From: Cephalotus follicularis
Lineage: Eukaryota > Streptophyta > Magnoliopsida > Oxalidales > Cephalotaceae
Length of the DNA stretch: 64,000 nt
Assembly (NCBI GenBank): GCA_001972305.1
Contig: BDDD01001355.1
Coordinates: 160,529 to 224,528 of the forward strand
Direction of reading: 5' to 3'
The notes below the pieces were generated by a model, which saw nothing but the letters and a program-made list of their open reading frames with translations, was not told the origin of the DNA and searched no databases. Shown one piece after another: positions 1 through 51,354 of this stretch. Within the stretch, counting starts at the first letter, position 1, and the number at the start of each line of letters is the position of its first letter. The position numbers and the translations under genes were made by a program.

Positions 1-522
1 AGAGGACTTCCAAAAAGCTACTGGTCTAATTTGACATTTCTTGACAGTCGGCTGAAAATATTGACAGTCGGCTGGTTTGCCTTGGCAGTCGGCTGATGCT
101 CTGTTCCAGTCGACTGTTTGAGGTGGAATGGAATTTCAAAAAGCTACTACAATTTTTGCACATTACTTGACAGTCGGCTAGACCTCCTTGGCAGTCGGTT
201 GTTTTGACTTGGTAGTCAGCTGCTCCCCTGATACAGTCGGCTGGTGTGGAGTGTAGTTCTAGTTGCTGGGATTCCTTCAAGATCCAGTTGGTTGTTTAAT
301 CCAAATAGTCGGCTACTCAACCCAAACAGTCGGCTGTCCAACCTGGTCAGTCGGCTGTTTTTGCCTGTATCTGCAGAATTACACTTTGCACAACTGTGGA
401 CATAAAATCAAGTGTGTATATGAATTTGTTAGCTTAGAAAAATATGCATACAAGTGTTACATGTTTGTTAATCATCGAAATAACACATGTTAAGGCATTT
501 AAAGGGGTGGCAAAGGCGAACA
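1..522 (-). repeat. Copia-1 3' LTR, partial
   Basis: Matches 8318-8859 almost base for base, including the word array. On the minus strand the LTR begins TGTTCGCC at 522; its far end lies before base 1. It is bounded at 523 by a polypurine tract, which identifies it as the 3' LTR. Twelve copies of the CAGTCGGCTG-type word fall in 45-357. Confidence 0.9.
45..357. repeat. 21-bp-phased word array in Copia-1 3' LTR
   Basis: Word starts: 45, 65, 86, 107, 171, 192, 213, 234, 285, 306, 327, 348. Within runs the steps are 20 or 21 bp. Confidence 0.92.
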
Positions 523-1050: not shown

Positions 1051-2202
1051 TCAAAATACAAGAAAACATGTAATGCAACAATGGAGCTCATGACGATCCG
1101 GGATGAGGGTTTTGTGGAAAGGCGTTTTGGAACAATTGAATGAGAGTGGTTTGACCTTCATAAATTTGGCCACTCTTCCTCTAAGGTACTCAATATCAGC
1201 TTGAGCCAAGTCCATCCGCGCCTGAAGAGACTCTAGAGTGGGTCTACTACCACTGCTGCTACTTGCTCCAACATTTGGTCTCGTTTCAAACTGCTGACCA
1301 TCATCATCATCTTCTTCCTCTTCATCACCATCTCCTCCAGCTCTCACACTAGGTTCTCTCACGGGTCCTCTTCCACCGACTTGTTGCTTTACCCATACAC
1401 CATCCTCAAGCTTAATACCACAACTCTTAAGTCCTTCATTGTTTAGAAGTTGCTTGAGATTGGGTTTAACCTTGTGCTTATCATCGAAAATGTCAAGGTT
1501 TAGGGATGCTAAGATCCTACTTATAAGCATGGGGTATGGAATGTGGTGCGGTCTAGAGAGCATATGATTGACAATGAGATAGGGGAGGTTCACAAGTGTA
1601 CCATTTTTTATACACGCAACAAGTTTAAGGTCTCGCTCGGAGGGAAGTGTGTACGAGCCTTCTCTAGGCAAAAGAATGTTTCTGACAATTAAAAGGAGAA
1701 TGCGGGTAGCAATAGGAAGATGACCACTAGTGACGGTCAAGATAGGATTAAAATCGGGGCGTTCTAAGAAAATTCCTATTGCCTTCGATTTCTCTATGTC
1801 ATTAAAGTGAGTAATGCCGGAACAAGGAATTCCTATGGTTTCAGCAATGAGTTCAAGGGTTATAGAGACTGGATTACCAAGGATAAAAGATTTGGCAAAA
1901 CATGTGGTGGAATTTTCTAAGTTTGCATAGAAAAGTTTAACTAGCCTAAGGTAAATTGTGTGTGATGAGCACAAGTAGTTAAACCATCCCATTTTTTCAA
2001 GCCATGACTTAACAGAGGCAATATTACTGACTAGAATATCACTATCAATCCATTTTTCATTATGTAATTTCACTCAGTTAAGAACGGAGTGATACCTAGT
2101 CTCATTCTCTTTGGAGAGAAAGAGTTCGTCATCAAAGTCACTCACAGCCTGAGATTGCCGCATATTCTTTGTTCCTAAGCTCTTTCTTCTCTTGGAAGCC
2201 AT
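1051..2202 (-). pseudogene. Envelope-position ORF of Sirevirus Copia-1, one internal stop
   Basis: An ORF downstream of pol. The likely start is the ATG at 2202, followed by 42 codons beginning MASKRRK, then a single TGA at 2074-2076, then about 340 more codons in the same frame. The main part resembles the plant transposon-protein domain often found in the envelope position of Sireviruses, with globular, leucine-rich sequence in the first 200 residues. Near residues 255-275 comes an acidic E/D run, then a Ser/Gly stretch and a short helix with coiled-coil character. The basic KRRK near the start could be a nuclear signal. No signal peptide or membrane segment is visible, so an envelope role is not supported. 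The domain identity is from memory of the family and is moderately certain. Confidence 0.65.
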
Positions 2203-2610
2203 TGAAATTGATTGGAGCAAGTTTGTAGAGAGGGTTAGGGTTTTTGGCAGGTTTTAGAGAGAGGAGACATAAGAAAAGAGGGGAAAATCGGGTTTATAAA
2301 ACCTGATTCCCACACCACCAGTCGACTGGGCTTTTATGGCCAGTCGGCTAGAAGTTTATGCAGTCGACAGGACAATGAGTCCAGTCGGCTGGATTCTGTA
2401 GAACATGGAAAATGCAGAATTTTGCCTTCCCTTTGAATCGTAAACCCTTAGTCAGCTATTATAGACTAATAGTAACTTAGGTACATGAGCAATTTGATGT
2501 AATTGAGTTATAAATTCAATGTTGAATGCATGACAATGTTTGAAAATCATTTTTCACATCAAAGCATACAAGTATTATCTAAACATCGTAAAAATGTGCA
2601 CATAATGAGA
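2203..2610 (-). other. Copia-1 spacer between pol and envelope-position ORF, with word array
   Basis: Non-coding spacer. Four words of the CAGTCGACTG class start at 2319, 2341, 2361 and 2382, spaced 22, 20 and 21 bp. This is the only internal, non-LTR cluster of this word in a complete element of the window. The rest is AT-rich with no ORF. Confidence 0.6.
2319..2391. repeat. Internal array of CAGTCGACTG-type words
   Basis: Word starts are 2319, 2341, 2361 and 2382. Words are conserved while the linkers between them differ, as in the LTR arrays of the same element. Confidence 0.8.
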
Positions 2611-2979: not shown

Positions 2980-3600
2980 CTATGATACTAAAGAATTATC
3001 AAGAAATTGGCAAGTGCCACTAGTGTTCTTTCTATCTAATTTACAACCACCATAATCGGCATCGGAAAAAGCATGCAGGCTAAAGAAAGAATCTTTAGAA
3101 TAAAATAAACCCAGTAAAGGGGTGTATGCAAGATATCTAAAGATTCGCTTAACCACAATTAGGTGAGTTTCTTTATGTGAGGATTGAAATCTAGCACAAA
3201 GACACACACTAAACATAATGTCCGGTCTACTAGCGGTAAGATAAAGAAGAGATCCTATCATGCTTCTATAAAGTTTTTGATCTACCTCTTTACCATTCTC
3301 ATCTTTGTCGAGTTTTGTAGTAGTGCTTATCGGAGTCTTGCAAGGCTTTGAGTTCTCTATTCCAAAACGTTTGAGTAGATCTTTTACATACTTGGATTGG
3401 TTGATGAAGGTGCCTTCATTTCCTTGAGAGATTTGAAATCCAAGGAAGTAGTTGAGTTCACCCATCATACTCATCTCGAATTCACCTTGCATAATGTTAG
3501 CAAACTCAATGCAAAGAGAATCATTAGTAGAGCCAAAAACAATAGCAGAGAGAATCATTAGTAAAGCCGAAAATAATATCATCCACATAAATTTGTACAA
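2980..3600 (-). pseudogene. Copia-1 RT C-terminal part and RNase H start
   Basis: Contains the Copia RT motif MMGELNYFLGFQI, then the connection region YRSMIGSLLYLTASRPDIMF and the RNase H start DADYGGCKLDRKNTSGTCQF with its first Asp. At 3528-3590 about 30 bp is duplicated (two copies of a stretch reading FGSTNDSLC or its decayed form), just after the YVDD active-site segment. The duplication and a stop separate it from the upstream RT half. Confidence 0.85.
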
Positions 3601-3652
3601 TTAAAATGTCCTCAAGCTTGGTTTTTACAAAAAGAGTTTTGTCAACTAAATC

Positions 3653-4705
3653 TCATTTAAAATCATTTTCCAAGAGAAATTTTGAAACTCTTTCATACCA
3701 AGCTCTTGGTGCTTGTTTTAATCCATAAAGAGCTTTTGACAATTTAAAAACATGATCGGAAAAGTACACATTTTCAAAACCCGGAGGTTGTTCAACATAA
3801 ACTTCCTCATTTATAAGGCCATTTAGAAAAGCACTTTTAACATCCATTTGATGCAATTTAAAACCTTTAAAACATGCAAAGGCCATTAATAATCTAATAG
3901 CTTCTAATCTAGCTACGGGAGCAAATGTCTCATCATAGTCAATGCCTTCTTCTTGACTATAACCTTGTGCAACTAATCTAGCTTTATTTCTAATAACCAA
4001 CCCATTTTCATCCATTTTGTTTCGAAAAATCCATTTTGTCCCAATGGTGGATTGATTTTTAGGCCTAGGAAGTAAGAACCAAACATTACTCTTTTCAAAT
4101 TGGTTTAGTTCCTCTTGCATGGCCACAATCAAAAAATCATCTTTTAAAGCATCAAAAACATTTCTGGGTTCGATATTTGAAATAAAAGCTACATTATCAC
4201 AATACTCCCTAAGAGAGGAACGAGTTCTTACCCCTTCGATAGGATTACCGATTACCTCGTTGTCTTTAACATACTCTCTTTCTCTTCTTGTTACGGGCTC
4301 CTTGGTGACTTGAATTTGTTGGAGTTCTTCTTCATGTACACCTTCTTCTTCAATCTTGTCAACTTCAACATCATCTTTGGAGATGTCCAAGCCTTCCAAT
4401 TGGTCTATGACACCTACATCATCAACAATATTTCCCTTTCTCGGAGCACTATTAGACTCTTCAAATAAAACATGAATAGATTCTTCAATAATTAAAGTTC
4501 GCTTATTGAATACTCTATAAGCTTTAGAATTTAAAGAGTAGCCTAAAAATATTCCTTCATCACTCTTGGCATCAAATTTACCAAGATTATCTTTCCCATT
4601 GTTCAAATTAAAAACCTTGCAACCAAAAGGTCTCAAATGACTAACATTCAGTTTTCTATCATTGAAAAGCTCATATGGGGTTTTCTTTAAAATAGACCGA
4701 ATCAT
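3653..4705 (-). pseudogene. Copia-1 integrase C-terminal region and RT N-terminal half
   Basis: 350 codons. The first part, [11 protein letters not shown] to [18 protein letters not shown], is the end of Copia integrase. An acidic linker follows, then the RT core: [35 protein letters not shown] and [12 protein letters not shown]. The last holds the first catalytic Asp of the polymerase. It ends at [15 protein letters not shown] plus a stop at 3653, before the YVDD segment, which lies out of this ORF around 3590-3610. Confidence 0.88.
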
Positions 4706-4931
4706 TTACTCTATTTATTATATAGCAAGAGGTGTTCACGGCTTCGGCCCAAAGATATTTAGGTAAATTATTTGCACAAAGCATGGTTCTCCCCATTTCT
4801 TCTAGAGTTCTATTCCTCCTTTCAACAACTCCATTTTGTTGAGGAGTTCTAGGAGCCGAGAAGTTATGGTGAATTCCAAGTTCATCACAAAAGTTTTCAA
4901 AACCAAAGTTTTCAAAACCAAGGTTTTCAAA
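4706..4931 (-). pseudogene. Copia-1 integrase middle part, broken
   Basis: Continues the integrase core with NFSAPRTPQQNGVVERRNRT, including the third catalytic residue Glu. A TAA near 4931 interrupts the segment after the second Asp (RSDHGK). Around 4893-4930 a 15-bp unit encoding FENFG is repeated, which looks like a local slippage duplication. Confidence 0.75.
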
Positions 4932-5765
4932 TTATTTTCCGTGATCACTACGAATGCTTATAATAGATAGACTCTTTTCATTTTGAATTCGTCTACCAAA
5001 TTTAATGAGGGAATCTAAAGCATCACTCTTTAAAGCTAAGAATATAACCCAAGTAAATCTAGAGTAATCATCTACTATAACTAGGCCACATTGTTTACCA
5101 CCAATGCTTAGAGTTCTTATTGGTCCAAAGAAGTCAATGTGCAAGAGTTGTAAAATTCTAGTAGTTGAAACAACATTTTTGGCTTTAAAAGAAGTTCTTG
5201 TTTGTTTGCCTTGTGCACAAGCATCACATCGTTTGTCATTATCAAATTTCATTTTAGGCAAACCAATGACTAAGTCTTTTCTAGAAAGTTTTGCAAGAAC
5301 ATCCATGCTAGTATGGCCCAAATGTCTATGCCAAAGCCATTTATCATTTGTGTTAGCATTAAAACAAACATTTTTGGAAAACATTTCTTTTAAATACACA
5401 ACATACACATTTCCTTGCCTATGACCGACAAACTTTACATCATTGGTGCTAGTGTCAATAATGTGACAAACTGAGGATTCAAAATTAACTTTATATCCTT
5501 TATCACACAATTGGCTAACACTAAGCAAATTATGCTTAAGGCCTACAACATATGATACATTTTCAATTAAGATATTGTATTCGTTACCTATTGAGCCAAT
5601 ACCAACAATCTTGGCTTTGTTGTTGTCTCCAAACGTGACCTTTCCACCATCAACTTCTTTAAGTCCAAAGAAGAGTGTTTTGTCACCCGTCATGTGCTTT
5701 GAGCAACCGCTATCTATGTACCATGGTTCTTCCTCCTTGTGGTTTGCTCGCAAACATCTTTCCAC
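4932..5765 (-). pseudogene. Copia-1 protease and integrase N-terminal part
   Basis: 277 codons. An aspartic protease active site, YIDSGCSKHMTGD, lies near residue 17. A GAG-pre-integrase segment with WLWHRHLGHTSMDVL lies near 135-150 (zinc-binding His), with CDACAQGKQTR near 180. The integrase core follows with LLHIDFFGPI (first Asp), VDDYSRFTWV and SIRSDHGK (second Asp). The first codons overlap the end of the upstream ORF in another frame, so a frameshift lies around 5710-5765. Confidence 0.88.
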
Positions 5766-6267
5766 CTACAAAAACGTCAAATGATTTTGATCTTGGTACC
5801 CATTGTTTATTGGGTCCATTAAAGTTACATTTTTTTTTTATAGTTCCTTTAGGAACCCAAATTTGTATAAATCTAATAGCATTTTGATGTGGAGAAGGCC
5901 TAGTATGAGAATGACAATGGAATTGAGAATGAGCAATCCTTTTAAAACATTTGCTAACTACATGTCCTACCTTGTGACAATATGTGCAAGTGGGTCTTGT
6001 TTTAGCATTCTTCAATTTTGTTTTAACTTCTAAAGGAGCATAACCTATATCGGTTTTATCAAGGTAAGGTCTTTGACTAGCAAGCATTTCCTCTAATTTC
6101 TTGCTACCTAATGTGAATTTACTAAAGGATTTCTCTAGGTTCACATTCTTTTCTTTAAGAGATTCTACTTCCTTTTCTAGATCAATGTTATTACACGAAG
6201 TAGGTTTAACTACACAATCAACCTTTTTAGCAACTTCATGTTCCAAAATACTAATATCACTTTTCAA
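5710..6267 (-). pseudogene. Copia-1 gag C-terminal part with second zinc knuckle
   Basis: 185 codons. Residues about 28-60 are charged and heptad-like (coiled coil). Residues 94-107 form a CCHC knuckle, CTYCHKVGHVVSKC. The end leads into protease in a shifted frame. It is joined to the upstream gag ORF through about 70 bp holding two stop codons (6268-6339), so it was originally one gag-pol reading frame. Confidence 0.75.
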
Positions 6268-6339
6268 ATGCTCATTTTAATTAACTAGCAAGTCCTTTTC
6301 ATTTTCAATACTAGCCACATTTTTCTTAAGTGATGAGTA

Positions 6340-7509
6340 TTAAGAGCATTTCTTTTTAAATTCTATAAGCAATTCATCAAAAGCAAATTGTAATTCACCA
6401 AAGGTATAAGAATCGTCTACCTCATTTTTGCTTTCCTCGTTGTCACTCGATGCCATGAAGCAAATGTTGGCTACTTGCTCGGTGACTTCATCATCAGAGG
6501 AGTCATCATCACTTAAGTGCCATGCTTTGAGGGCTTTTTTCTTGAAGAGCTTCTTCTTCTTCTTCAATTGAGGACAATCCACATTGATGTGTCCCGGTTT
6601 GTTGCACTCAAAGCAAGTAGGAGGATCCATCTTGGTTCCTTCTCCCTTGTTGGGGTTTTTCTTTTGAAAACGTCTAGCTTTATTCATCTTTGAGAATTTT
6701 GTGAATCGTTTCGCAAAGAGAATGTAGTCTTCTTCTTCGAGCTCTTCATCACTCGAGATTTCTTCTTTGTGAGTGCTTTTGAGGGCAATATCCTTCCTCC
6801 TTTCTTCTTGAGGCTTTTTCTCCACAAGGTTGGTGGATTTCTTGTTCAATTTCACCTCATGAGTCATGAGGGAGCCAAGTAGTTCTTCGATCTCCATAAC
6901 CTTTAGGTCCTTCGATTCTTCAATTGCCATGACCTTTGGTTCCCATTCATCATTAAGGCATCCGAGCAATTTCCTAACAAGTTCATCTTTGCCAAAAACC
7001 TTGCCAAGGACAAGAAGAGCATTAGTGATATCAAGCAAACGATTATATAAATTTTTGATAGATTCGTTTGGTTGCATTTTAAATAACTCATAGTCTCTAT
7101 TTAGCAAAGCAAGTTTGGCATTTTTAACTTGCTCGATACCCTCATGGGTGAGAATGAGAAATTTACACACTTCATGTGCAGAGGAGCATCTTCTAACAAG
7201 ATTAAATTCGGCTTTATCTAAAGAAACAAGCAAAATATTTAGGGCTTTGTTATCTATGGTCAATTTTTTGAAATCATCATCATCCCATTCATCTTCGGTC
7301 TTAGCAATGCATTCATTTTTATCATTTGTTTTCATAGGGATGTGAGGACCATTTTTAACACTAAGCCAATTCTTGAAGTCTCTAGACTTAAGGTAAATCT
7401 CCATACGACTTTTCCAATATGGAAAATCGTCACCACTAAAAAATGGTACCTTAAATTCGGAGACATCTTCATGGTTTCTAGTTTGATTATTTTTGCTAGT
7501 GGATGCCAT
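6340..7509 (-). CDS. Copia-1 gag polyprotein (capsid and nucleocapsid)
   Basis: 389 codons starting MASTSKNN, the first ATG after the 5' LTR and primer binding site. The N-terminal part, FKVPFFSGDDFPYWKSRMEIYL, is the standard start of Copia gag. A CCHC zinc knuckle, CFECNKPGHINVDC, lies at about residues 299-312, followed by a lysine-rich run and an acidic Ser/Asp stretch. Gag packs the element RNA into virus-like particles. Compared with Sirevirus gag it is truncated by a stop at 6340; the rest continues downstream to 5710. Confidence 0.88.
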   Translation of the reverse strand: MASTSKNNQTRNHEDVSEFKVPFFSGDDFPYWKSRMEIYLKSRDFKNWLSVKNGPHIPMKTNDKNECIAKTEDEWDDDDFKKLTIDNKALNILLVSLDKAEFNLVRRCSSAHEVCKFLILTHEGIEQVKNAKLALLNRDYELFKMQPNESIKNLYNRLLDITNALLVLGKVFGKDELVRKLLGCLNDEWEPKVMAIEESKDLKVMEIEELLGSLMTHEVKLNKKSTNLVEKKPQEERRKDIALKSTHKEEISSDEELEEEDYILFAKRFTKFSKMNKARRFQKKNPNKGEGTKMDPPTCFECNKPGHINVDCPQLKKKKKLFKKKALKAWHLSDDDSSDDEVTEQVANICFMASSDNEESKNEVDDSYTFGELQFAFDELLIEFKKKCS

Positions 7510-7553: not shown

Positions 7554-7565
7554 GCTCTGATACCA
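7554..7565 (-). other. Copia-1 primer binding site (initiator tRNA-Met)
   Basis: Minus strand TGGTATCAGAGC, complementary to the 3' end of plant initiator tRNA-Met, two bases inside the 5' LTR. It primes minus-strand DNA synthesis. Confidence 0.9.
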
Positions 7566-7567
7566 AT

Positions 7568-8859
7568 TGTAGGAAGTCTAGAGGGGGGTGAATAGACTTA
7601 TAAAAAATAACTAGCAAATATCCTAGAAACAAATCAAACAAAATCACTCAAATGCGGAAATAAAAGAGTGTATGGTTGAGAGAGTTGCAAACAAATGTAT
7701 AGTGGTTCGGCAAACCGCCTACGTCTACTCCCCAAAGCCTCCCATTGAGTATTTCACTAGTATGCCCCAATTCGGGCTTGAAACTCCAACTGAGCTTCAA
7801 TGACTTTCGCTCCAAGCAAGCGAATACAAGATTGCTCCCTCCGAGATATATAAGAGACAATCTCTCTTGTTTACAAGTAAATTGATAGTGTTTTAAGGTT
7901 TACAAATTCACAATGAATTTGCTTACAATTAAGCTCAATGTCAACAAAGCTTCTAATGATAGAAATTGTAAAAACAAATGCTTTGTAAAGTAAGAAATAG
8001 CTTGAATAATTTCTCTTTTGATATTGTGAGTGTTGAGTATGTAGCTTGAGTTGCCTTGAATGATTTTTGTACTCTCTTACTTGACCAATCTAGAAAGATG
8101 CTTCAATTTGGCTTATAAACATGTGCTCCAACGGATCTATTTTTGAAAGTCAGGCATAATCCAATCGGTTGGATTTCCTGGGTAGTCAGCTGGAGTTGAT
8201 GGCGCGTATTTTAAATTATAGCCATTGGTGAAGGCAGTCGGTTACTTCCTCTGGTCAGTCGGCTGTTTCTCCTAGATAGTCGCCTGATGCTCTGTTTTAG
8301 TCAGCTGGTTGAGGTGGGGAGGACTTCCAAAAAGCTACTGGTCTAATTTGACATTTCTTGACAATCGGTTGGAAATATTGACAATCAGCTGGAAATATTG
8401 ACAGTCGGCTAGTTTGCCTTGGCAGTCGGCTGGTGCTCTGTTCTAGTTGGCTGTTTGAGGTGGAATGGAATTCCAAAAACCTACTGCCATTTTTGCACAT
8501 TACTTGACAATCAGCTAGACCTCATTGGCAGTCGGTTGTTTTGACTTGGCAGTCAGCTGCTCCTCTGATACAGTCGGCTGGCGTGAATTGTAGTTCCAGT
8601 TACTGGGATTCCTTCAAGGTCCAGTCGGCTGTTTAATCCAAACAGTCGGCTACTCAACCCAAACAGTCGGCTGTCCAACCTGGGCAGTCGGCTGTTTTTG
8701 CCCGTATCTGCAGAATTCCACTTTGCACAACTGTGGACATAAAATCAAGTGTGTATATGAATTTGTTAGCTTAGAAAAATATGCATACAAGTATTACATG
8801 TTTGTTAATCATCGAAATAACACATGTTAAGGCACTTAACGGGGTGACAAAGGCCAACA
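7568..8859 (-). repeat. Copia-1 5' LTR
   Basis: 1292 bp. On the plus strand it runs TGTAGGAAG to GGCCAACA, so it has TG..CA ends on the minus strand. It is adjacent to the primer binding site. At 8860 the sequence changes abruptly to the gag start of Gypsy A'. Nineteen 10-bp words of the CAGTCGGCTG class lie between 8162 and 8694. Its copy at 1-522 differs by scattered substitutions, mostly G/A and C/T, so the element is not very recent. Confidence 0.9.
8162..8694. repeat. 21-bp-phased word array in Copia-1 5' LTR
   Basis: Word starts: 8162, 8183, 8235, 8256, 8277, 8298, 8362, 8382, 8402, 8423, 8444, 8508, 8529, 8550, 8571, 8622, 8643, 8664, 8685. Most steps are 21 bp (20 twice). The larger gaps of 64, 51 and 52 bp recur at the same places in the other LTR. 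Word consensus is CAGTCGGCTG with C/T and G/A transitions. Confidence 0.92.
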
Positions 8860-12540: not shown

Positions 12541-14174
12541 AAAGTAGAAACCTTAAACAATAATCAGTTTAAACATTCTTTATAAATTACCTCAGAAATT
12601 TTCGTATAAACCAAAACCCATAACTTTCAGAACATAAAGCGTATCTTTCCAAAACATAAAGCATACATTTCAAAACATAAAGTTCCATACTGAGCATCAT
12701 AACATATCACATATCTGAACACATATAAGCAAGGTATTCACGACGTCCACATGCCAAATAGAAATGACGTGTACGGCACTACACAATGAATTCTCATAAC
12801 ATAAAATATTACATATTTCTAGGATCAATCCATACGCCTCTATCACAAATCCTCCACATAGGATATCATAACATAGAAAGACATCGTAAACTAATCAAAC
12901 CGCCATGGAAAGTGTCATGCTTCCGTGCCAAAGGACATGCCTATGGTACGCCCCATAGGTGGGTACAAAAAGCTCAGTACTTCACCATTTCAAAACATTG
13001 ATTTAATCATAATTAATTTGAAAACATGTATAGAAAGGTTTTCTGAACATATCCAAAAATGATTGTTATCAAACGATATAACTTCACATTGCACATAATT
13101 TCATAATCATAAATCAACTCATTTATTTTCACAATAAAGGAGATGATTGCATAACATTTCGTAAACAAATCATAGCTGGATTTATAAAGCCAGAAATATT
13201 CACTTTCATAAAAATATCAATGCTGACTTTATTTCGAAACATATCAAAATCCGAAGTATAACGGAGTTCATAAAACCCAAGGAATAAAACAAAGAAGGAA
13301 GTATTCGTACAATATCCATTAAAAACCAAAACTGAATTTATTTCAATCAAATCAGATGTCCAAGAAGAGAATTATCCGTATCTTATGCGATCACAGAAAT
13401 AACTTACGAATTGACCGATAATTTCTAAACTGCCCCTCGGTAGCACAATATATCTATAAGATACAAAATCATTCATATAAGGACTTGAAATGAACTGCGG
13501 ACATAAATCAGAATTATAACGGTATTTAAAACAGACCTTGATTCAAAAGAAGAACAAATGGCTAAGGAAATTTGAAAGCAGAAATTCATTGGACACACCA
13601 GTCGACTGGAATAGGACTCCAGTCGACTGTTCAAAGCTTGGAAATCGACTGCACAACATAGCTAGCCGATTATTCAAGCAGAACTGTAGCCAGTCGACTA
13701 TGATAGGGGTCTAGTCGACTGTGCAAGACATAACAGCCGACTGAACGATAGGGCAACTGACTACTCAAAGCAAAACAACTGACTGTTCAATAAGTCAGTC
13801 GACTGTTCTGGGCGACAGAAAACAAAAATCTAACAGTCATATGAAATTTTCTGTCAAAAACCTGGATGTCACATTATTAGAGGATCACAACCATTTAAAT
13901 AAGCATTTATGCAGTGTCTAAACTGTGAAGAGAACACAGAATTAACATGGAGTATGTAGACAGTGGCTATGCTAAAAGTGTGTGATGAGTTCAAAACCAT
14001 AGCATACATATACACATAACCAGTTTATTGTCCGAAATGCCAACTACCAGATATCAAAACCAGATTACTACCTATACAAGATGCCTAAAGGCTTGCTAAC
14101 AGGCTCAGAAACAATGACAGAGCATTGAGTGGCAGGAATCAAAAACAAAACTCTAACAACCTATATACACATAC
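12541..14174 (-). repeat. Gypsy A' 5' LTR, piece 2
   Basis: Continues the A' LTR after B1; aligns with about 41980-43500 of Gypsy-A, including phrases around CATACGCCTCTATCACA. It contains a word array and ends at the CATAC target duplicate (14170-14174) of Gypsy-F. Confidence 0.85.
13599..13805. repeat. 21-bp-phased word array in Gypsy A' LTR
   Basis: Word starts: 13599, 13620, 13642, 13663, 13691, 13712, 13734, 13754, 13776, 13796. Steps are 20-22 bp with one 28-bp step, the same step that Gypsy-A shows at the corresponding place. Words range from perfect CAGTCGACTG to decayed forms such as CAACTGACTG. Confidence 0.9.
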
Positions 14175-14505
14175 TGTCACACCCCGTTATTTCCATTCAC
14201 GTATAATGGACAAGCATATGTGGTGATATCAGAAATAAGCATAAATAATATTCCAGCATAACTCATAAATAAAAATTTTTGCGGAAGCATTCGATAAGCC
14301 GAAATATAAATAAAAGCTGTCCGCACGCATCCCATACTACGTGCGGGTAAAACCAACAATTATCCTTACAAAAGGAATACAAAATAACACGGGCTGTGAT
14401 CCGTTCGATACAATACAATACATCATCAACATTAAAATAACAACCTTAAAATAACAATAGAAGCTCTCCTAGCTTCAGCAGCAATATCCGAGGTCTTCGT
14501 TTAAT

Positions 14506-14547
14506 CTGAAATTGTAGGGGGTTAGCCGTTGTCCTCACTTGGCTAAG
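14506..14547 (-). promoter_or_regulatory. Conserved branch-point/3'-splice-site-like block in Gypsy-F 3' LTR
   Basis: Minus strand: CTTAGCCAAGTGAGGACAAC, then GGCTAACCCCCTACAATTTCAG. It has CTAAC followed by a pyrimidine-leaning stretch and CAG. The same block is at 21986-22027 (F 5' LTR), 58722-58764 (G), 30590-30640 (E, plus), 11161-11207 (B1, plus), 52895-52940 (B2, plus), 35803-35850 (C', minus) and 54410-54460 (C, minus). Function is inferred only. Confidence 0.5.
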
Positions 14548-15529
14548 TAAGGAAGATAATGCATGATAAGGAATATATGAATGCAACATGTATGGCATTT
14601 ATATATTAAAATAACATTTAAATGTGCCAATATATAAGCAATCATACCAAGTGGCCATAAACAATCCATATGCAAGAATACCGCACAAGGGTACAATCAA
14701 TTCATCCATCAATTGGGTGTCACATGTCGCTAACTCCTAGCACCAACTGTGCACCACCTATCTATCACCCTACGCTCCGAAGATGATAAATTAGGTAACA
14801 TTTACTACCGACATTGGCGGGCAGTTTAACAATCAAGCTCTGCATTGCAGGCAGTTTTGGTGTGTACTCTAGCCAACTCCTGGCACATAGGACCACCTCC
14901 GTTAGCCAGTGACATCTGCCATCAGTCGACTAATCGGCAATAACATAGACAATCAATTCAATCAATTCAGTCAATAATAATATCACATATATGTATAACA
15001 TGCAATATAAAAATTGTTTGCTTTAGAAACATATAACAAGTCATTTAACGTACATCTCTTCGGAGGAAAACGATCTCATTTCAATAGTGGTTTCTAGTTT
15101 GGGAAACAAAACAGTAGGTGCCTCTCATATAGGAGGAAAATCAGTAGTTCATTTGGCAATAATCATTCATTTGAAAGTGATAGTTAATATCATAAATTGG
15201 GTACGTAGCCTGTAGTTGGTTTCAATCATTGAAATACAAGTGGTAGTGGTGTTAGAAGACACCAAAACAGTTTATACTAATATGACAGTAGCATATTCAG
15301 TAACAATATCATAAATCAGTAGTTCTTGCAATAATAGTTTCATTTGAAAATGGTGTTTAAAACCATGAATTGTGCATATAGCACCTAGTTCGTTTGATCG
15401 TTGCAATACAAGTAGTAGCGATGTTAAATAACATCAAACAGTATATACTATATGGTGGTAGCATATACAATTCAATAACAGTACCAAACAGTAGCAATTC
15501 AATCAATGTTATGCAATTCCTACCCAGAA

Positions 15530-15642
15530 CAGTCGGCTGCCCTCAAGATTAGCCGACTGTTTGGGTTGTGTAGTCGACTGCTTGGGCTTGGCAGTCGACT
15601 GAAAGGGTTGAGTAGTCGACTGTAATTGTTGACAGTCGACAG
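15530..15642. repeat. 21-bp-phased word array 1 in Gypsy-F 3' LTR
   Basis: Word starts: 15530, 15550, 15571, 15592, 15613, 15633; steps 20-21 bp. Mostly CAGTCGACTG or TAGTCGACTG. The array is missing from the F 5' LTR because of a deletion there. Confidence 0.9.
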
Positions 15643-16662
15643 CCTCTGCCAAGAAAATGCAGGCAGTGGCATGTCATGCAATGCAATTTCGATTTTTAAT
15701 CAATTTCAATACATGTAGCATGTAGAAAATAGACATACACAATATGCATACTATATCTTCCATAACATATCATTACCCCTACCTCAAATTGCTATCCCAA
15801 GATCAATTGAGTTTGATCTTTCTCTTTGAGTTTCAAGCCTTCACCAACAATCTTTCAATCCAGCAAGTTCAATCTATGTATGCATGTTTATGGACTCATG
15901 CATTAGTACCAGTAGGTTTCAGTAGCTACTTATAACAATTACAATTCCAACAATAGCTTTAATCATCAAGTTCCCCAAGTCTTAACTTCCATTTAACAAT
16001 TTCCTTTGAACTATATGTCAACTATTATTCAATCTCGAATTCATTGATCTTAAGTGTGTTGACAGAAGATGCATTTACATTTAAGAACTAGTAAACATAT
16101 ATCCCAACATTAACAACAACTATAATCCATTCTAGAGGCTATAGTCACCATTTATACTTGAACCATTTATCATCTTCTATTCCAATTCTAAGAGTTGTTG
16201 ATTCTGATCCATTAACAGGAGATATTAACATTCCTAGTCACATTATCATCATAACAACAGAGAATTCGGATTGAGAACTTACCAAGAGACCAAAGCTTCA
16301 AGGTTTCTTCTTGGAGCTCTCTATAATTCCTCCAATGCAAGCTCCAATAATTTCTCTCTTCACTCAATGTTTTCTAACACTCATCTCACAATTCAACAGC
16401 TAATATAATGTCAAAATCTCTTTTGAATTCGTCAGATTCCTTCTCCAAGTCACATGCACTCACTTTTCTCTCTTTTCTTTCCATCACATGCATCCCTCTC
16501 TTCACTTTTCTCTCATTAATTATCAATTTGCAGGTTGTAGGTTTGCAGAGAACATGAAAACATTCACTTTTGCATGTTCTGGCAGGTGGTGAAACGCATG
16601 TGCCTTCTACCCACCTGTCATTCTTGTCTCTGCACATGCCAGGAATCTGTCCTGGGCAATTC

Positions 16663-16742
16663 CAGTCGACTGGATATAGTAGGCAGTCGACTGCCTTCAA
16701 CACGTAGCAAACAGTCGACTGTTGCCCTGTGACAGTCGGCTG
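16663..16742. repeat. Word array 2 in Gypsy-F 3' LTR
   Basis: Word starts: 16663, 16684, 16712, 16733; steps 21, 28, 21 bp. The same cluster is at 22827-22906 in the other LTR. Confidence 0.88.
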
Positions 16743-16914
16743 TTTGGGCTAGTTTAGGGCTTCTTAACTTTGATACTTCACCAAAAGTACATCCATTCAT
16801 CCCAAGCATTTACCAATCATAGAAATTAGTATAATTGAACAATTAACTCAACTAAAATGTATATTTAATTTCAACATTGGATCAATATACATTAATTGAG
16901 TTGCGGTTATTACA

Positions 16915-21640: not shown

Positions 21641-23078
21641 TGTCACACCCCGTTATTTCCATTCACGTATAATGGACAAGCATATGTGGTGATATCAGAA
21701 ATAAGCATAAATAATATTCCATCACAACTTATAAATAAAAATTATTGCGGAAGCATTCGATAAGCCGGAATATAAATAAAAGTCGTCCGCACGTATCCCA
21801 TACTACGTGCGGGTAAAACCAATAATTATCCTTACAAAAGGAATACAACATAACACGAGATGTGATCCGTTCGATACAATACAATACATCATCAACATTA
21901 AAATAACAACCTTAAAATAACAACCTTAAAATAACAATAGAAGCTCTCCTAGCTTCAGCAGCAATATCCGAGGTCTTCGCTTAATCTGAAATTGTAGGGG
22001 GTTAGCCGTTGTCCTCACTTGGCTAAGTAGAAAGATAATGCATGATAAGGAATATATGAATGCAACATGTATGAAATTTATATATTAAAATAACATTTAA
22101 ATGTGCCAATATATAAGCAATCATGCCAAGTGGCCATAAACAATCCATATGCAAGAATACCGCACAAGGGTACAATCAATTCATCCATCAATTGGGTGTC
22201 ACATGTCGCCAACTCCTAGCACCAACTGCGCACCACCTATCTATCACCCTACGCTCCGAAGATGATAAATCAGGTAACATTTACTACCGGCATTAGCGGG
22301 AAGTTTAGTCACCATTTATACTTGAACCATTTATCATCTTCTATTCCAATTCTAAGAGTTGTTGATTCTAATCCATTAACAGGAGATATTAACATTCCTA
22401 GTCACATTATCATCATAACAACAGAGAATTCAGATTGAGAACTTACCAAGAGACCAAAGCTTCAAGGTTCCTTCTTGGAGCTCTCTATAATTCCTCCAAT
22501 GCAAGCTCCAATAATTTCTCTCTTCACTCAATGTTTTCTAACACTCATCTCACAATTCAACAGCTGATATAATGTCAAAATCTCTTTTGAATTCGTCAGA
22601 TTCCTTCTCCAAGTCACATGCACTCACTTTTCTCTCTTTTCTTTCCATCACATGCATCCCTCTCTTCACTTTTCTCTCATTAATTATCAATTTGAAGGTT
22701 GTAGGTTTGCAGAGAACATGCAAACATTCACTTTTGCATGTTCTGGCAGGTGGTGAAACGCATGTGCCTTCTACCCACCTGTCATTCTTGTCTCTGCACA
22801 TGCCAGGAATCTGTCCTGGGCAATTCCAGTCGACTGGATATAGTAGGCAGTCGACTGCCTTCAACACGTAGCAAACAGTCGACTGTTGCCCTGTGACAGT
22901 CGGCTGTTTGGGCTAGTTTAGGGCTTCTTAACTTTGATACTTCACCAAAAGTACATCCATTCATCCCAAGCATTTACCAATCATAGAAATTAGTATAATT
23001 GAACAATTAACTCAACTAAAATGTATATTTAATTTCAACATTGGATCAATATACATTAATTGAGTTGCGGTTATTACA
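21641..23078 (-). repeat. Gypsy-F 5' LTR, internally deleted
   Basis: 1438 bp, against 2740 bp for the other LTR. Sequence corresponding to 14829-16143 of the 3' LTR is missing, with a 2-bp TA overlap at the junction near 22307. The remainder is about 99 percent identical by eye. The deletion removes word array 1 and the middle of the LTR. Confidence 0.9.
22827..22906. repeat. Word array in Gypsy-F 5' LTR
   Basis: Word starts: 22827, 22848, 22876, 22897, with steps 21, 28, 21 bp, identical to the 3' LTR. Confidence 0.88.
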
Positions 23079-27678: not shown

Positions 27679-27935
27679 GGATTTGATGCATATATGCAGT
27701 TAGAATTTTGTTGTTGATGATATGCTTGAATTGTTTGGGTTAAACCGTGAGACGGAAACATGAGATGTAAACAGCAGATTTCTCTGTTGCTGTAACGCCC
27801 GAGGTTTTCATTAATGCGATGGTGTGTTTCCCGATGTAATCTACACCTTGAATTTATGAGAGTCATGAGTTTCCTATCTTGTGTATTGAAACTTGCATGG
27901 AGAGATAAAGTGCAAAGTGTGGGAACAAGGGCGGG

Positions 27936-28066
27936 CAGCCGACTGCCAGAAGGAGGCAGTCGACTGGATCCCCTGTAAGTAAACCAGCCCACTGCTAGGG
28001 GGAAAACAGCCGGCTGGGGAGAGTTTCGGCAGAAACAGCCAACTGCCGAGACAAGGCAGCTAACTG
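27936..28066. repeat. Word array 1 in solo LTR E
   Basis: Word starts: 27936, 27957, 27985, 28007, 28036, 28057, with steps 21, 28, 22, 29, 21. Words are CAGCCGACTG, CAGTCGACTG and variants. Confidence 0.85.
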
Positions 28067-28601
28067 CCACGTGGTCTGTCAGTCAAAAACGTGTTGAAAT
28101 ACCGAGATTTTGGAGGAGAATTGACGGGAGAGAAGTGTTGTTGAGCAGAGAAGTGGAGAGGGGCAATTTTCCTCCATAAAACCACATCTCTTCTCCTCCT
28201 TGAATTATTTTTCTTGAGAGAAACAAAGTGCGAGGAAGAAGGAGAGGAAAGTGAGTGTGTGACTAAGCCTAAGTGCTTTTTTTTGAATCGGGGACTTGGA
28301 AGCTCGGACCAGTGGGAGAACAGGACTTGTTGGAGTTGCTGGACAGGCCTGGGAGCGTGGAACGCCTCGGATCCGGGACTTAAAAAGGTGGATTGCAATT
28401 CCTAACTTGGAATTCAAGGTAGGGGAAAGTTGTAATTGTGATTTAAGTTCAATCATAATAATGTTAATGGACGAAATGCGTGCAATATACTGTGATATGA
28501 GCATGAATGTGTGTTGTGGTGATAGTGCTATGCGTTTTGAGTGGATTAAAGTGGGTTGAACATGTGTATTTTTTGCTGTTTTGGGGCACTGCCCGCAGGG
28601 C

Positions 28602-29014
28602 CAGCCGACCGTCCATGGAGGACAGCCGACTGCCCGAGGCTACCAATCGACTGTTCAATGAGAACAACCGATTGCTCATGGGAAACAGCCGACTGTGCAA
28701 AGGAGCCCGTCGATTGTTCATGCTTTGTGATGAAGGACACCTCATGCTGTTTGACCAGCCGATTGCCAAGAAGGGTAGCTGACTGTTGAGGTAGGACAGC
28801 CGACTGCCAAGAAGGGCAGCCGACTGTTATTTGAGGACAACCGACTGCCAAGGAGGGCAGCCGACTGTTATTTGAGGACAGCCGACTGCCAATAGAGGAC
28901 AGCCGACTGTTGAAGGAAAACAGCCGACTTACAGGGGGAGACATCCGACTGCCAGGGGGTGACTGCCGACTGTTGAAGGAAAACAGCCGACTGTCAGTGA
29001 GAGACAGCCGACTG
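28602..29014. repeat. Word array 2 in solo LTR E (longest array)
   Basis: Nineteen words at 28602, 28623, 28644, 28665, 28686, 28707, 28756, 28776, 28797, 28817, 28838, 28858, 28879, 28900, 28921, 28942, 28963, 28984, 29005. All steps are 20 or 21 bp except one of 49. The consensus here is CAGCCGACTG, the reverse complement of the CAGTCGGCTG form in Copia-1. The linkers are G/A-rich and variable. Because 21 bp is seven codons, the array is open in several frames on both strands; this does not make it a gene. Confidence 0.92.
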
Positions 29015-29129
29015 TTTGGGACTGTTTTGCATTGTGAGCATATGTGTGCATCGTGTGCCGTGATGAACTGTATTGTGAATTGGTTATTGATGATTGTGAA
29101 ACATTTTACCCCTTTTGGAAGTGCAAACA

Positions 29130-29900
29130 TGATTTATATAAATCATTACTTTACACGAAAATGTATGTTTTGAGAAAATATATATTTTCGAAAGATTGTG
29201 AAAATGGCTTCCAAAACATTGTGAACCGAGAATTGTGACATTGTGAAAATGTGTTTGTTTTCAAGTATTTTATGTTTTATAACTTGCTTGGAAATGTTTT
29301 GATCGAATTGAATTGTTGATTGAGTAATCAACTGTTTCCAAAAATGTACTCCATTTTGGAAGTGAGTAAATGGTTTATTAAAATCATTACTATGGGGAAA
29401 AGTATGTTTTCCAAAAGAATTGTGAAAATGGTTTCAAGGGATTGAAAAACTGTTATACGAAGATGAGTATCTTCGCGTATTTGAATGTGGTTCAAATGAC
29501 TTGTTCTACCTCTTAAAAATGTATTGCTTTCAAGTATTTTATGATACGCTAAAATTACTTGAAAGGGGTTGAAACAAGATTTCAAATGATTGTTACATAT
29601 TTTGAATAAATATGTTTTGGCAAGTACTTCATTTTATATAAATTACTTGCTGACTGTTTTGAAGAGAAAAATATATGTTACAAGTATTTATATCTATAAA
29701 TTACTTGAAATGAATTGAAGGAAAGCGTATTGTTGCAAGTATTTTATGAAGCATAATTTACTTGGGAAATGGAGTGTTATATATATTGACAAATATATAT
29801 GTTGTAAGTATTTATACTTTTGAACGTTTTGGAGATGAACTGCAACGTATTGAACGATATGTTTTGATCAAGTAATTATTTTATAAATTGCTTGAGCTGG
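29130..29900 (+). repeat. AT-rich degenerate repeats with CAAGTA/TACTTG inverted phrases in E
   Basis: Recurring phrases CAAGTATTT and AATTACTTG (for example 29530-29560, 29619-29650, 29678-29710, 29735-29765) alternate and could pair as short stem-loops. The phrase TTGTGAAAATGG occurs near 29196 and 29420, with a repeat distance of about 220-240 bp. No ORF of note. Confidence 0.55.
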
Positions 29901-35230: not shown

Positions 35231-38200
35231 TGTCACACTCGTCCTAACAGAGACAGATGTGACCATCATGCGGCGAGTCTCCTTTCGGAAACTTCCACGT
35301 GATATAATAAAACCCGTTTGAAAACTTCTTAAAAACCATATAATTAAAAATCATATAAGTTGAACTTAACCAAAACTTGAAAATTTTTCTAACTGTCAAA
35401 TATTTACAAAAATCGGGCATGTAGTATCCATTAATCGGACTATGCCCCCTGTAAAGAAAACACAATTTATATGACCATACTCCCGAATGAGGAATCATCA
35501 ATTTATAAATGGGCTCAGCCCTCAACAAACCACAGTTTAAACTAATAAGTATGTATGGGTTGGGCTCTGCCTCAACCGTTTTATCAAAACATGAAAAATG
35601 TATATATAGAGCTCAGCCCTTTAAAACAAAACCATAAGAGAAAACATTTATTTAAAAATATAAGTAAATGCGTAATTTTTATGTTGATGTAGTGATGTTA
35701 TGCATGTGTTGAAACCCTGTCCATATGTTGAAACCCTGGTAGCATGCCTTGCCCTCGTGGTCCATCATCTACTAAAGTCGTCTTAGCAACTGCTCGCCAT
35801 TATCTGAAATGGAAAACTGTGAGGGGGTTAGTCCAAATGACTAAGTGAGTTGGGACAAGTCATTCCCTGTTGCATTCGTACAAATAACCGGATGCGCTGA
35901 AAGAAATATATACCACAATATAGAAGAATTGATCCACGAAAAGAACATAGTCATGAACAAGGTTTTATAATGAAAGCTAACAACTCAATACTGAAACTGA
36001 AAATACAATAAGTGAAACTGGACTATAAGCTCAAAGTAAACATCTGGTCATCCGCTGAATGAAACAGCATAACTAGAGACAATACCATCCGAGTATAACA
36101 AGATCATAATGAAATCATAGTAGAATAAAATATCAGGAATAATAGATCAAGGTATGTACCCATAAGAAAAGCATAACATCTGGGGATGCTGATACAACTA
36201 TATATTATCCTATCTCTGTTATCACATCTATCTCTCTCACATCTAATGGCAATACTATTCTGCTGTATCATCAACTTCACATCATCATCCTCACATTGTC
36301 ATCCTCATATCATCATCATTCTCATATCATCATCCACATGCACCGGTGCAATATCTTAAGTCACCGCCATATCTCATGGCACTGTTATACATCATCCCAG
36401 CCACACAAGCTACACATTATCCCAGCCATACAGGCTACGAGTCTAATCCAAACATCATCCCAGCCACACAGGCTATGGGTCTAATCCGATCATCATCCCA
36501 GCCATACAGGCTACACATCATCCCATCCATACAAGCTACGAGTCTAATCCAAACATCATCCCACCCACACAGGCTACGGGTCTAATCCAATCATCATCGC
36601 AGGCACACAGGCTATGGCTATAATCCAAACATCATCCAAGCCACATAGGCTACAGGATCTAATCTAATCATCATCCCAGCCACACAAGCTACGGGATCTA
36701 ATCTAATCATCAGACTAGCAATATGAGTAACAGAGCTCGGCTGCACTCACACTCAGCATACCATCATAGACAATAGTATGCCGCAGGTCTAGGTATGGAA
36801 CCTGGAGGCAGTTCCCATATAACATCCCATCATAGACCAATGGGCATGCTAAGGAGAGGGGGCATCAAATGTACACCTCACCCTAGACCATTATTACAGT
36901 CACAGACAATATAATACTCAGCATCATAGTACAAAGTACTGTATCAACGATACATAAAGAAAAACAGGAAGGTGACCTAGTCACCCAGAGTCTATCACAT
37001 AACAGTCAACAACAAGCTCAACATAAGACATGTGGGATTCAAATCCCGATCAAACCATCAATAACAAACAAAATGGCACATATAGAAACAAGAGTCTTAA
37101 AGACAATACAAATAAATGAAGGGAATGTCCCACTCACAGATTTACTAAACTTGGCTATCACTGACTAACCCTGCGATACTCCAGATCAGAAACAGGATTC
37201 ACGTCTACAATACTATCACATGACAATATCCAATAAGCATACTTCTATGCATATACAACGAAAGATGTATATAGTGCACTTATAAGCTGTATGATAGCTA
37301 CATCCCCTAATTTAACAATTATTAGTATTTCTAAACAATCAATGAATCTCAAGGATTCATTAGCACCCCATTCTCATCACTCTTTGGTATAAAACTAGCA
37401 TTACAACTTACTTGGATACATACATATCGGATGAATGCACGTATGAGCTACCTTATGCATTAACATGTCATATCAAAGTGAAACTTTCCAGATCATAATT
37501 AAAAGATCTCGGTAGTCTATCATTCAAAAATCGATTGAAACCGACAAGCTGAGCTTTAGCCTCCTTTGTAAAGTCATTGCCAAACGAGTTTTTCGCAAAA
37601 GCAAAAGTTAACACCCTTTTACCAACTTTAAAGATCCAATGGAGTTGAAACTTTGGGAAATGTGTTTATTCCTACCCAAGAGTCTACCACTAAAAAATAA
37701 AGTCAAACTGATGGCCGGAGCTACAAGCCACTTTGTAAAACTGAGGTTTGAAAACTATTTTTCCGTAAAAACTGCAAAAACGAGACTTTTTGGCCAAAAC
37801 CATATCCGTTTGACACAAAACTTTCAGGAATGTTTTTAAACATATCTAGAAGCTTTTTTCTCAAAAATAAATTCAAACGGATAAGCAGAGCCATATGCTC
37901 CTTTGTAAAATCACAGTTTCAAAATGATTTTAGCGTAACTTCACATTTTTTGGTCCAAACCAAGTCTGTTTGGTACGAAACTTTACAAGTAATATTTAAA
38001 TATATCCTAAGGTCTACCATTAAAATTTCAAGTCAATTGGATCACTCTAGGTTCAAAAAGTGACTAAAACACCATTTCGGCAACATGACGGCTATAGATG
38101 CCGATATCAACCAATAACTCTTTGAACCATATCACTGGTTCATAATTACAAGAAGCAACTTCACTTGTTTATAAATACATACTAGGCAGAAATCTCCCAA

Positions 38201-49085: not shown

Positions 49086-50015
49086 AATCTGTAACACCCG
49101 CGGACGGCGGGAGTAGTCACAGGTCATAATACAAAACCTATCATAACATATCAGCCAAAACGTGGCACTCTTATCATAACTGAAACATTAAAACTTAATG
49201 TTTTTGGAAAGACTTAAAACATGTTTAAGTTCCAAATTTAAAACATAAAAACATAAGCATCATTGTTTATGACCACTAGACATAAAACACAGGGATCACA
49301 CTCCTAGGGATCCAAAGACATAGGGTAGTCATCTCTCGTTCACACATTTCCCCGCTGCTCCCGATAACCTGCTGCATGGAAAACAAAAACGCGGCTGAGC
49401 AAACCTCAGTACGGATAAGAGAAATAAAAACAGTGAACGATAATTTAAAAGCAGTAAGATTTCAAATAAATTCATAACAGAAATCTTAAGCAAATGAACA
49501 GTTTAATCATATTCGAATACCAATTTCATATCTTTCGAAACATTTACGAAACATTTGAAAATGTCATTTCACGATTCACAGAATCATACTGAGCCACATA
49601 CATATCGTATCATATGATTAAAGTCGGAATCATTTCTAATTATCAAAACCAATTTCATTTTCGAATCATAATCCAATTCATAAAACGAAGGAACATAGCA
49701 TAAAACAAAACTGATTTCAGTTCAAAAATCAGATAGCCAAGGAATGATAGAAATCCATACCTTAGACGTTCACAATCCACTTATGGATAGATGATTTAAA
49801 TCAATCTCCACTTGAAGCACAACAATCTAAAAGACACCCAAAATCATTCATATAAGAGTCTAAGACACATCAGAAACATTAAACAGACTCATTACTGTGT
49901 TTGGAAAAGACTCGGATCGATTCGAGGAACAAACGAATCAAAACAGTTGAAAACAGTACTTTTCTGGACAAAACAGACGAATGTTACAGAGCACAAGCCA
50001 ACTGGAGAAGCTTGG

Positions 50016-50179
50016 CAGTCGACTAATCACAAGGGCAAGCCGACTACACAAGACAGACTACAGGCAGTCGACTGTCACTTAGATCCAGTCGACTACACAA
50101 CCCAAGCCAATCGACTGTGTTCATATGGCAGTCGACTACTCATCCAATCCAGCGGACTGTCCACAAGAACAGCCGACTG
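50016..50179. repeat. 21-bp-phased word array in Gypsy-A 5' LTR
   Basis: Copy of the 43010-43173 array with the same 21/28-bp step pattern and a few base changes. Confidence 0.88.
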
Positions 50180-50964
50180 TTCTGGACGACAGAACAGCAG
50201 AAACTTGATAATTTCAATACAGAAACTGATTCAAACGAGTACAACGTTAAACCAGAGACACAAGGACATAAATATATGACCATATATGACATGTAGATGA
50301 CATAGAAACACATAATTGACACAAAATAAGATGATCAATGGCTCAACTTTAAAAGAAAGAAATAACTCCTTAAACACAAGCACATGTTCAAGTCCAAATT
50401 CTCTGCCCATGTTCAATAACAGACATTTAAAACCAGATTGTGACAAGTCATGGTACACAAAACATGTTGACAAACTTACTAACACCATGACAGAACATAT
50501 ACATACATAGGAATTCAAAACTTAGAGGACACTAAGAACACTAACAACAAAACCAAAAGACTAGTGAAATGAATCATTACAGTGGGATTACGAACCTGCA
50601 ATGATTGTCCAGAACACGAAAAACACAGCAAGAACACCACCACTAATTTGTTACTCGGCTGTGAACAAAACAGAAGAAGAAGGAAACCAAAATACATAAC
50701 AGTCTTAACAAACTAAAGGAACTCAACCAAATAACAATGGAGGACTAAGATTACCTCTGTAGACTGACGAACCACTCCCCAGCAATTCACACAGGCTTCA
50801 AAGGGCAGAATTCGGCAGTGAGATATGGAGGAAACGAATGGCATATCCAAACACACTAGCACTCTTAAAACAGGAAAGAGATGAGTGATTTGAGGGATGA
50901 ATAAGGAATAAAGGGGGACAAAAATCAGTTTAATATGGATAGGAAAGATTGAAGACGTGTGGAT

Positions 50965-51080
50965 TTTATGAGGGGAAAGAAAGAGCTTCGGGAGAGGAGA
51001 GGAAGAAAGAAAGGAAAGAAAAGAAGAAAGAAGAAAGAAAAGGAAAAAGGAAAAAGGAAGAAAAAGAAAGAAAATAAATT
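50965..51080. repeat. Purine-rich (GAAA/GGAA) tract in Gypsy-A 5' LTR
   Basis: More than 90 percent A/G over about 110 bp; same tract at 43950-44070 in the 3' LTR. The 5' LTR copy has a short extra AAAGG unit, a sign of slippage. Confidence 0.8.
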
Positions 51081-51354
51081 AAAATAAAATAAAGGAAATA
51101 AATGAAATGTTTTAATAATGTTTAAAAGTTATAAAATAAAATAAAATTTTGATAAAATAGAATTTATTAATATAAGCCCAACCCACATAGCAATAACATA
51201 TCAAAATATTTAGGCTGGTATCAAACAGCCCAAATCACATACGCCCAAAACACAGGGCAACCGGACTTCAAAATTAACCAAATTAAAAAGCCCGAAAACA
51301 AACACATAAAAAGACCGTAAAAACACATACAAACCGGCAGGGTATTACAATAAA

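Follow-up and report, generated by a model that had tools for sequence, protein, structure and literature searches.

A near-palindromic word at 21-bp steps in the LTRs and before the extra gene of a Cephalotus follicularis Sirevirus is shared with Ty3/gypsy LTRs

Within the window, that is the whole 64-kb stretch of Cephalotus follicularis DNA that was analyzed, one near-palindromic 10-bp word recurs at 8162–8694 (minus strand) with freely varying linkers in between. This raises the question of which element carries the array, whether the words are conserved more than the linkers, and what such an arrangement might do. A scan allowing two mismatches found 18 words, and a further word at 8508 with three mismatches was recognized by eye outside that scan, which together give the 19 words counted in a preliminary description of the locus. 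That description called the 21-bp step strict. The step was 20 or 21 bp in 14 of 18 cases, but the remaining four were 52, 64, 64 and 51 bp, and "strict" is therefore slightly too strong. On the sense (minus) strand most of the words are spelled CAGCCGACTG; the dyad is CAGTC/GACTG, and the perfect palindrome is CAGTCGACTG. A chance origin was rejected because the best 10-mer seed is found 18 times in the array, as against a maximum of 5 across 200 shuffles; the best seed confined to the linkers had 4. Higher-order duplications are present inside the array, and linkers are sometimes alike locally. The word forms arrays or short runs at ten other places in the window that the preliminary description had missed, namely 45–357, 2319–2391, 13599–13805, 15530–15642, 16663–16742, 22827–22906, 27936–28066, 28602–29014, 42968–43173 and 49974–50179. 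A coding repeat was considered as well, since 21 bp keeps reading frames open and an open reading frame at 28546–29130 crosses one of the arrays; it was rejected because the linkers are free. Other tandem repeats of the window, at 36267–36712, 52354–52518 and 55478–55773, have units of about 38, 57 and 60 bp.

The main array spans 166 to 698 bp, in the sense direction, of the 5′ LTR of an element designated A. This LTR (7568–8859, minus strand) is a 90.2% repeat of window positions 2–522, has TG...CA ends, and is adjoined by the primer binding site TGGTATCAGAGC (7554–7565, minus strand). The 3′ LTR (1–521, minus strand), recognized from the LTR repeat and the word scan, is cut by the window edge and contains 12 words. 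The gag and pol pieces at 2980–7509 (minus strand) have the Ty1/copia domains Retrotran_gag_2, gag_pre-integrs and RVT_2. A terminal PPT with an AT/TG attachment site is present at the 3′ LTR (AAAAAGGGGGAGATTG), further PPT copies (GGGGGAG) lie at 833, 801 and 531 in the linker region of the element but are absent from gag-pol, and a poly-C signal (CACCCCCCT) lies near 7600, close to the 3′ end of the 5′ LTR. In a related copy on another piece of the assembly, L040, five GGGGGAG copies were found. The primer binding site, the terminal PPT with AT/TG, the GGGGGAG copies and the poly-C signal fit the Sirevirus features given in the available sections of PMC2829016. By its pol and gag domains, PPT and poly-C signal, element A is a Ty1/copia Sirevirus.

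The occurrence of the word throughout the 1.577-Gb assembly was quantified by an exact-word search. The two main spellings together occur about 375,000 times. CAGTCGGCTG was found 88,820 times in forward and 88,572 times in reverse orientation, compared with 622 and 708 for a control, the word read backwards, and the perfect palindrome has 197,377 sites compared with 939 for its control. The number of exact CAGTCGGCTG pairs separated by 0–30 bases was 17,189 + 17,115 = 34,304. The gap was 10–12 bases in 15,952 + 15,848 = 31,800 of these pairs, i.e., the words were 20–22 bp apart. A sample of one 10-kb stretch from each of 20 contigs, with the same offset throughout, contained 115 words with at most one mismatch versus 14 for backwards-read words. 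Among the 73 successive distances that did not exceed 30 bp, 64 were 20–22 bp and none was shorter than 20 bp. At the positions one step to either side of an exact word, which were not selected for matching, the commonest letters again spell CAGTCGACTG. The 21-bp spacing noted in the window is thus also the genome-wide peak. A scan of IMG/VR for two spaced words returned 11 stretches with one pair each and no array, which was judged to be chance.

The word is also present in Ty3/gypsy elements of the same window, which the preliminary description had overlooked, as it had an internal array before the extra gene of element A (see below). The 3′ LTR of gypsy element B (14175–16914, minus strand; target duplication GTATG) contains 11 words, in arrays at 16663–16742 and 15530–15642 plus a single word at 14923. 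Its 5′ LTR (21641–23078, minus strand) lacks about 1.3 kb of the 3′ LTR and has 4 words (22827–22906). Element C, a gypsy element with a chromodomain just above the Pfam cut-off and the target duplication TTTAT, has 12 words with at most two mismatches in its 3′ LTR (41591–44323, minus strand) and 12 in its 5′ LTR (49090–51349, minus strand). A fragment, E, which is 66% identical to the LTR of C, carries the array at 13599–13805 (minus strand). Stretch D (27787–29302, plus strand) is LTR-like, is related to the LTR of a gypsy element on another contig, L042, and includes the arrays 27936–28066 and 28602–29014. In L042 itself, gypsy pol is flanked by LTRs of 95.4% identity that contain 20 and 21 words, each LTR having two arrays. 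For B, C and L042, gypsy pol between the LTR pair was confirmed, and the word is present in both LTRs of each; target duplications were confirmed for B and C. The internal regions of B and C contain 4 and 3 words with up to two mismatches, respectively, and none with up to one. Among 15 arrays in the sampled 10-kb stretches, similarity of word-masked LTRs assigned 6, all of them gypsy-like, and some of the 9 others adjoin gypsy pol. Two segments of the 3′ LTRs, 42115–42594 (480 bp) in C and 14829–16141 (1313 bp) in B, are missing from the respective 5′ LTRs. Because the related fragment E has the 480-bp segment, it was deleted from the 5′ LTR of C.

When the words were masked, the LTRs of A, L012 and L040 yielded a single, marginal match to gypsy LTRs, 37 bp shared by L012 and C (E 0.008); the remaining matches were copia–copia or gypsy–gypsy. 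At the sequence level, the same word and the same step are common to Sirevirus and Ty3/gypsy LTRs that have almost no other likeness. The converse was seen with gypsy element F. Its pol matches that of L042 with 80.7% identity across 2.0 kb, and a 0.7-kb portion lying further upstream matches with 73.3%. The approximate LTR of F (57960–60608, minus strand) contains no word with up to one mismatch and two with up to two, and instead has a second TCGA-centered palindrome, about GACRTCGAYGTC, at steps of about 20 bp (19–22 bp; 59117–60440, minus strand). Close relatives can thus differ in the word, while unrelated elements share it. Palindromes of the GACRTCGAYGTC type were also matched in L021, L033, L036, L039 and L041.

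The conservation of words and linkers was compared in three aligned pairs of diverged LTRs, C with E, A with L040, and L042 with D. Identical positions amounted to 79/100 in words versus 55/105 in linkers for C/E (Fisher p 7e-5), 141/170 versus 168/333 for A/L040 (p 4e-13), and 164/190 versus 415/746 for L042/D (p 3e-16). Identities were thus 79–86% for words and 50–56% for linkers, with the caveat that in one direction of two of the pairs 10 and 60 word positions sit in alignment gaps. Word identity peaked at mask offset 0, and shifting the mask by one base in either direction lowered it. The flanks outside the arrays had identities of 0.57 (C/E), 0.71 (A/L040) and 0.76 (L042/D). The linkers were therefore less conserved than the flanks in A/L040 (0.50 versus 0.71) and L042/D (0.56 versus 0.76), and part of the contrast thus comes from linkers that evolve fast or under relaxed constraint. 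The earlier statement that the linkers are free held in all three pairs, and an ordinary satellite was rejected, because the words and the step are kept while the linkers drift and the 21-bp peak is genome-wide. The two LTRs of single insertions gave a different picture. The values for words and linkers were 99/100 versus 104/106, 101/110 versus 186/203, and 180/190 versus 743/760. An excess of word conservation was thus absent in 3 of 3 pairs, and in the last one words were even slightly worse kept than linkers (p 0.046). Words favored between lineages but not within an insertion argue for constraint over element generations and against a mutation bias of the site. The constraint is as expected for a site that active elements would need.

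The position of the words relative to TATA boxes was regular in the Sirevirus-type LTRs. In the 5′ LTR of A, read in the sense direction, TATAA (8113–8117, minus strand) starts 45 bp past the last word. Eight Sirevirus-type LTR arrays were compared (A, L012, L018, L029, L031, both LTRs of L040, L044), of which L029 and L031 were classed solely by the bases around the TATA box, masked-LTR similarity having placed neither. TATAA or TATATA was found 44–45 bp past the last word in seven of them, and TATTTAA in its place in L044; L012/L018 and the two LTRs of L040 look like pairs of one element, so the independent cases are fewer than eight. The sequence between the last word and the TATA box is partly conserved, and the fixed distance is thus partly due to common descent. 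In the gypsy arrays the distance was not fixed; the nearest TATA-like match was 70–121 bp away, or none was present within 130 bp.

Element A contains an additional, internal array of four words at 2319–2391 (minus strand), with steps of 21, 20 and 22 bp in the sense direction. A TATAAA at 2293–2298 (minus strand) starts 21 bp past the last of them, and the extra (env-like) gene follows at 1051–2202 (minus strand; PF20167, Transposase_32), in a copy broken by a stop codon, with an open reading frame at 1051–2073 after the stop. Eight copies of the extra gene were collected. The upstream sequence was available for seven (window, L040, L044, L045, L046, L047, L048), and the copy in L018 is cut by the edge; L045–L047 were picked where LTR arrays predicted an internal array, and L048 lies beside the gene seen in L018. 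All seven copies are preceded by a short array of 3–4 words at 19–22-bp steps, with two additional words further upstream in L048. A TATA-like box lies 19–21 bp past the last word in 7 of 7, with the sequences TATAAA (2), TTTAAA (3) and TTAAAA (2), so that five boxes differ from TATAAA. An ATG follows at 103–117 bp past the last word in all seven and begins a similar basic start; that it opens the extra-gene frame was seen in the open reading frame listing for L040, and earlier ATGs are present in the window copy (49), L044 (9) and L048 (27). The regular distances to the TATA-like box and the ATG are best read as a putative internal promoter before the extra gene.

The extra gene has at least 297 relatives, and the 120 matches listed of these 297 are all from C. 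follicularis. An intact copy is present in L040 (2625–7250), in which the LTR parts are 98.6% identical and the internal array and the intact extra gene are all that was kept, whereas gag, the greater part of pol and the end of the 5′ LTR have been deleted. The intact protein starts with a basic stretch and includes an acidic run; judged by the usual hydropathy cut-off for membrane spans, it has no clear span (best 19-residue hydropathy 1.53). Its structure prediction had a pLDDT of 42, and no DNA-binding relative was found among PDB sequences. PF20167, the family of the extra gene in this Ty1/copia Sirevirus, has in sunflower been reported for the Athila aORF, and the available part of that report describes a nuclear localization signal in the protein (PMC11728184).

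The preliminary description had named VANDAL elements as a loose precedent and had added that maize Sirevirus LTRs also carry palindromic repeats. The Sirevirus precedent is not a loose one: the array sits inside a Sirevirus LTR and, by the available sections of Bousios 2010 (PMC2829016), belongs to the palindromic repeated-motif (RM) boxes of Sireviruses. RM boxes are described there as palindromic motifs in the LTR upstream of the TATA box, with more copies immediately ahead of ENV in the elements that have this gene. The array has the same features, namely many palindrome copies in the upper LTR a short way upstream of the TATA box, and the additional copies before the env-like gene were found in 7 of 7 cases with upstream sequence. 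The Vitis motif CGGTCGACCG, the Tnd-1 motif ACAATCGATTGT and the word described here all fit C-R-R-T-C-G-A-Y-Y-G (PMC2829016). In two respects, the lack of a CGG-CCG core and of CpG enrichment, the array is an atypical RM box. The core is present in 12 of the 13 RM motifs of PMC2829016 and absent from CAGTCGACTG and CAGCCGACTG. It is also absent from Tnd-1, which is listed nonetheless, so that the core is not defining. The CpG islands of RM boxes have no counterpart here (CpG observed/expected 0.53 in the main array versus 0.50 in the remaining LTR), and the RM boxes of Tnd-1 and Sorghum likewise lack them (PMC2829016). A 21-bp step, a comparison of words with linkers and an identified internal promoter are not stated in the available sections of that paper. 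Among the Ty1/copia elements that were studied there, these sections call the RM motif specific to Sireviruses, whereas here the same word also occurs in Ty3/gypsy LTRs. The sections also state that an internal promoter for the ENV gene had been proposed but not conclusively identified, and leave the role of the RM boxes open.

For maize, palindrome clusters have been located in the cis-regulatory part of Sirevirus LTRs (Bousios 2016, as cited in PMC5311732 and PMC10760457), and the same palindrome is enriched in Helitrons, a case of sharing across families (PMC10760457). As far as these sources could be consulted, the emphasis there is on hairpins and small RNAs, whereas here folding of the sense RNA was not beyond chance. 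In the literature searched, which lay mostly outside subscription papers, no 21-bp array common to copia and gypsy elements was found. Taken together, our verdict from the sequences is that the locus represents a variant, an RM-type array that is shared with Ty3/gypsy elements and that also precedes a regular putative internal promoter.

The observations to be accounted for are the words, their step, the constraint between lineages, the placement before TATA-like boxes and ATG in the Sirevirus, and the sharing across superfamilies. We consider it likely that the array acts as an upstream activating sequence in which the words are repeated sites for one DNA-binding protein. Such an array would serve two Sirevirus promoters and be shared by gypsy elements. 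A single sequence-specific protein would recognize the dyad CAGTC/GACTG, probably as a dimer, and with sites two helical turns apart the bound protein would be aligned on one face of the DNA just upstream of the TATA box. The LTR array would serve the LTR promoter and thus the production of genomic RNA, and the internal array would serve the internal promoter just before the extra gene. Binding, dimerization, activation and the use of both promoters are steps that we infer. The earlier idea, that a dimeric protein binds the words along one face of the helix, fits the step, the drifting linkers and the place upstream of the TATA box, and it is retained as a prediction. As the same word and step occur in their LTRs, the gypsy elements B, C/E and D/L042 would probably answer to the same protein. 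We favor a host-encoded protein over one encoded by the element, because gypsy elements without a recognized extra gene carry arrays. RCCGAC, which we take to be the core recognized by plant DREB proteins, is contained in CAGCCGACTG; the perfect palindrome lacks it, and DREB proteins are therefore a lead only. In foamy viruses, one transactivator controls both the LTR promoter and a second promoter located internally, ahead of a 3′ accessory gene; the likeness of the Sirevirus arrangement to this is an analogy only.

That the element itself encodes the protein is the alternative to which we give most weight, although we regard it as unlikely. The env-like gene product would be a transactivator, or an anti-silencing protein, that uses the spaced arrays; as a nuclear transactivator it would bind the LTR array and the array at its own internal promoter in a positive feedback, which unrelated gypsy elements, having taken up the word, would exploit. 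If this were true, a single protein made by the element would act at the LTR promoter as well as at the internal promoter of its own gene and would have hundreds of thousands of sites in this genome. The same word before both the LTR TATA box and the extra gene would be explained, the intact L040 protein with its basic start and acidic run and without a clear membrane span would be compatible, and so would the nuclear localization signal of the sunflower Athila protein (PMC11728184) and, in the available sections of Bousios 2010, the restriction of linker motif copies to elements with ENV (PMC2829016). However, the structure prediction and the lack of DNA-binding relatives among PDB sequences do not speak for a transactivator, and no copy of the extra gene was recognized in the searched pieces of array-bearing gypsy elements. 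Still less probable is a binder of the VANC type, which would strip DNA methylation from the arrays instead of activating a promoter. The available passages on VANC describe targets that resemble the arrays, namely short motifs that are arranged in tandem in non-coding sequence and turn over rapidly between relatives, and report the VANC6 motif also in one unrelated element, AT9TSD1 (PMC5735166, PMC10398659); the different word of F in spite of its pol identity to L042 would be similar. But VANDAL elements belong to the DNA transposons and carry a VANC gene; no VANDAL-type element and no VANC gene was seen here, the arrays sitting in LTR retrotransposons, and the same passages mention no fixed spacing. 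In addition, CpG observed/expected hardly differs between array and remaining LTR, and the tight placement before the TATA box suits a promoter better.

The two remaining explanations dispense with a DNA-binding protein. Adjacent near-palindromes might pair as hairpins in the transcript, in line with the predicted structure of the maize Sirevirus palindrome clusters and their attraction of small RNAs, as described in the available parts of PMC10760457 and PMC5311732. The antisense strand indeed folded better than shuffled sequences (z −4.37; 0 of 100 shuffles were as good), but the sense strand did not (z 0.15; 56 of 100). Moreover, almost every imperfect word in A, D, L042, L040 and L037 has the C.A form, which breaks pairing in the sense RNA; this argument fails for C-type arrays, which lean to the G-U form (C: 4 T.G, 1 C.A). 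A function at the RNA level is thus very improbable. The strong folding of the antisense (plus) strand at 8162–8694 may be a chance orientation or may reflect avoidance of sense hairpins. Least probable of all is a functionless repeat that expands by slippage. The higher-order duplications and locally similar linkers would be expected of it, and duplication creates neighboring copies in any case, but the linkers do not share the conservation of the words between lineages, the two LTRs of an insertion show no excess of word conservation, and the same word and step are found in unrelated elements.

The reading that we prefer, repeated sites for one DNA-binding protein, suggests that a single protein may serve many retrotransposons of this genome. 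As the word, the step and the distances to the TATA box and the ATG are all regular, the role of the RM boxes and the expression of the extra gene of Sireviruses become simple questions of binding and reporter experiments.
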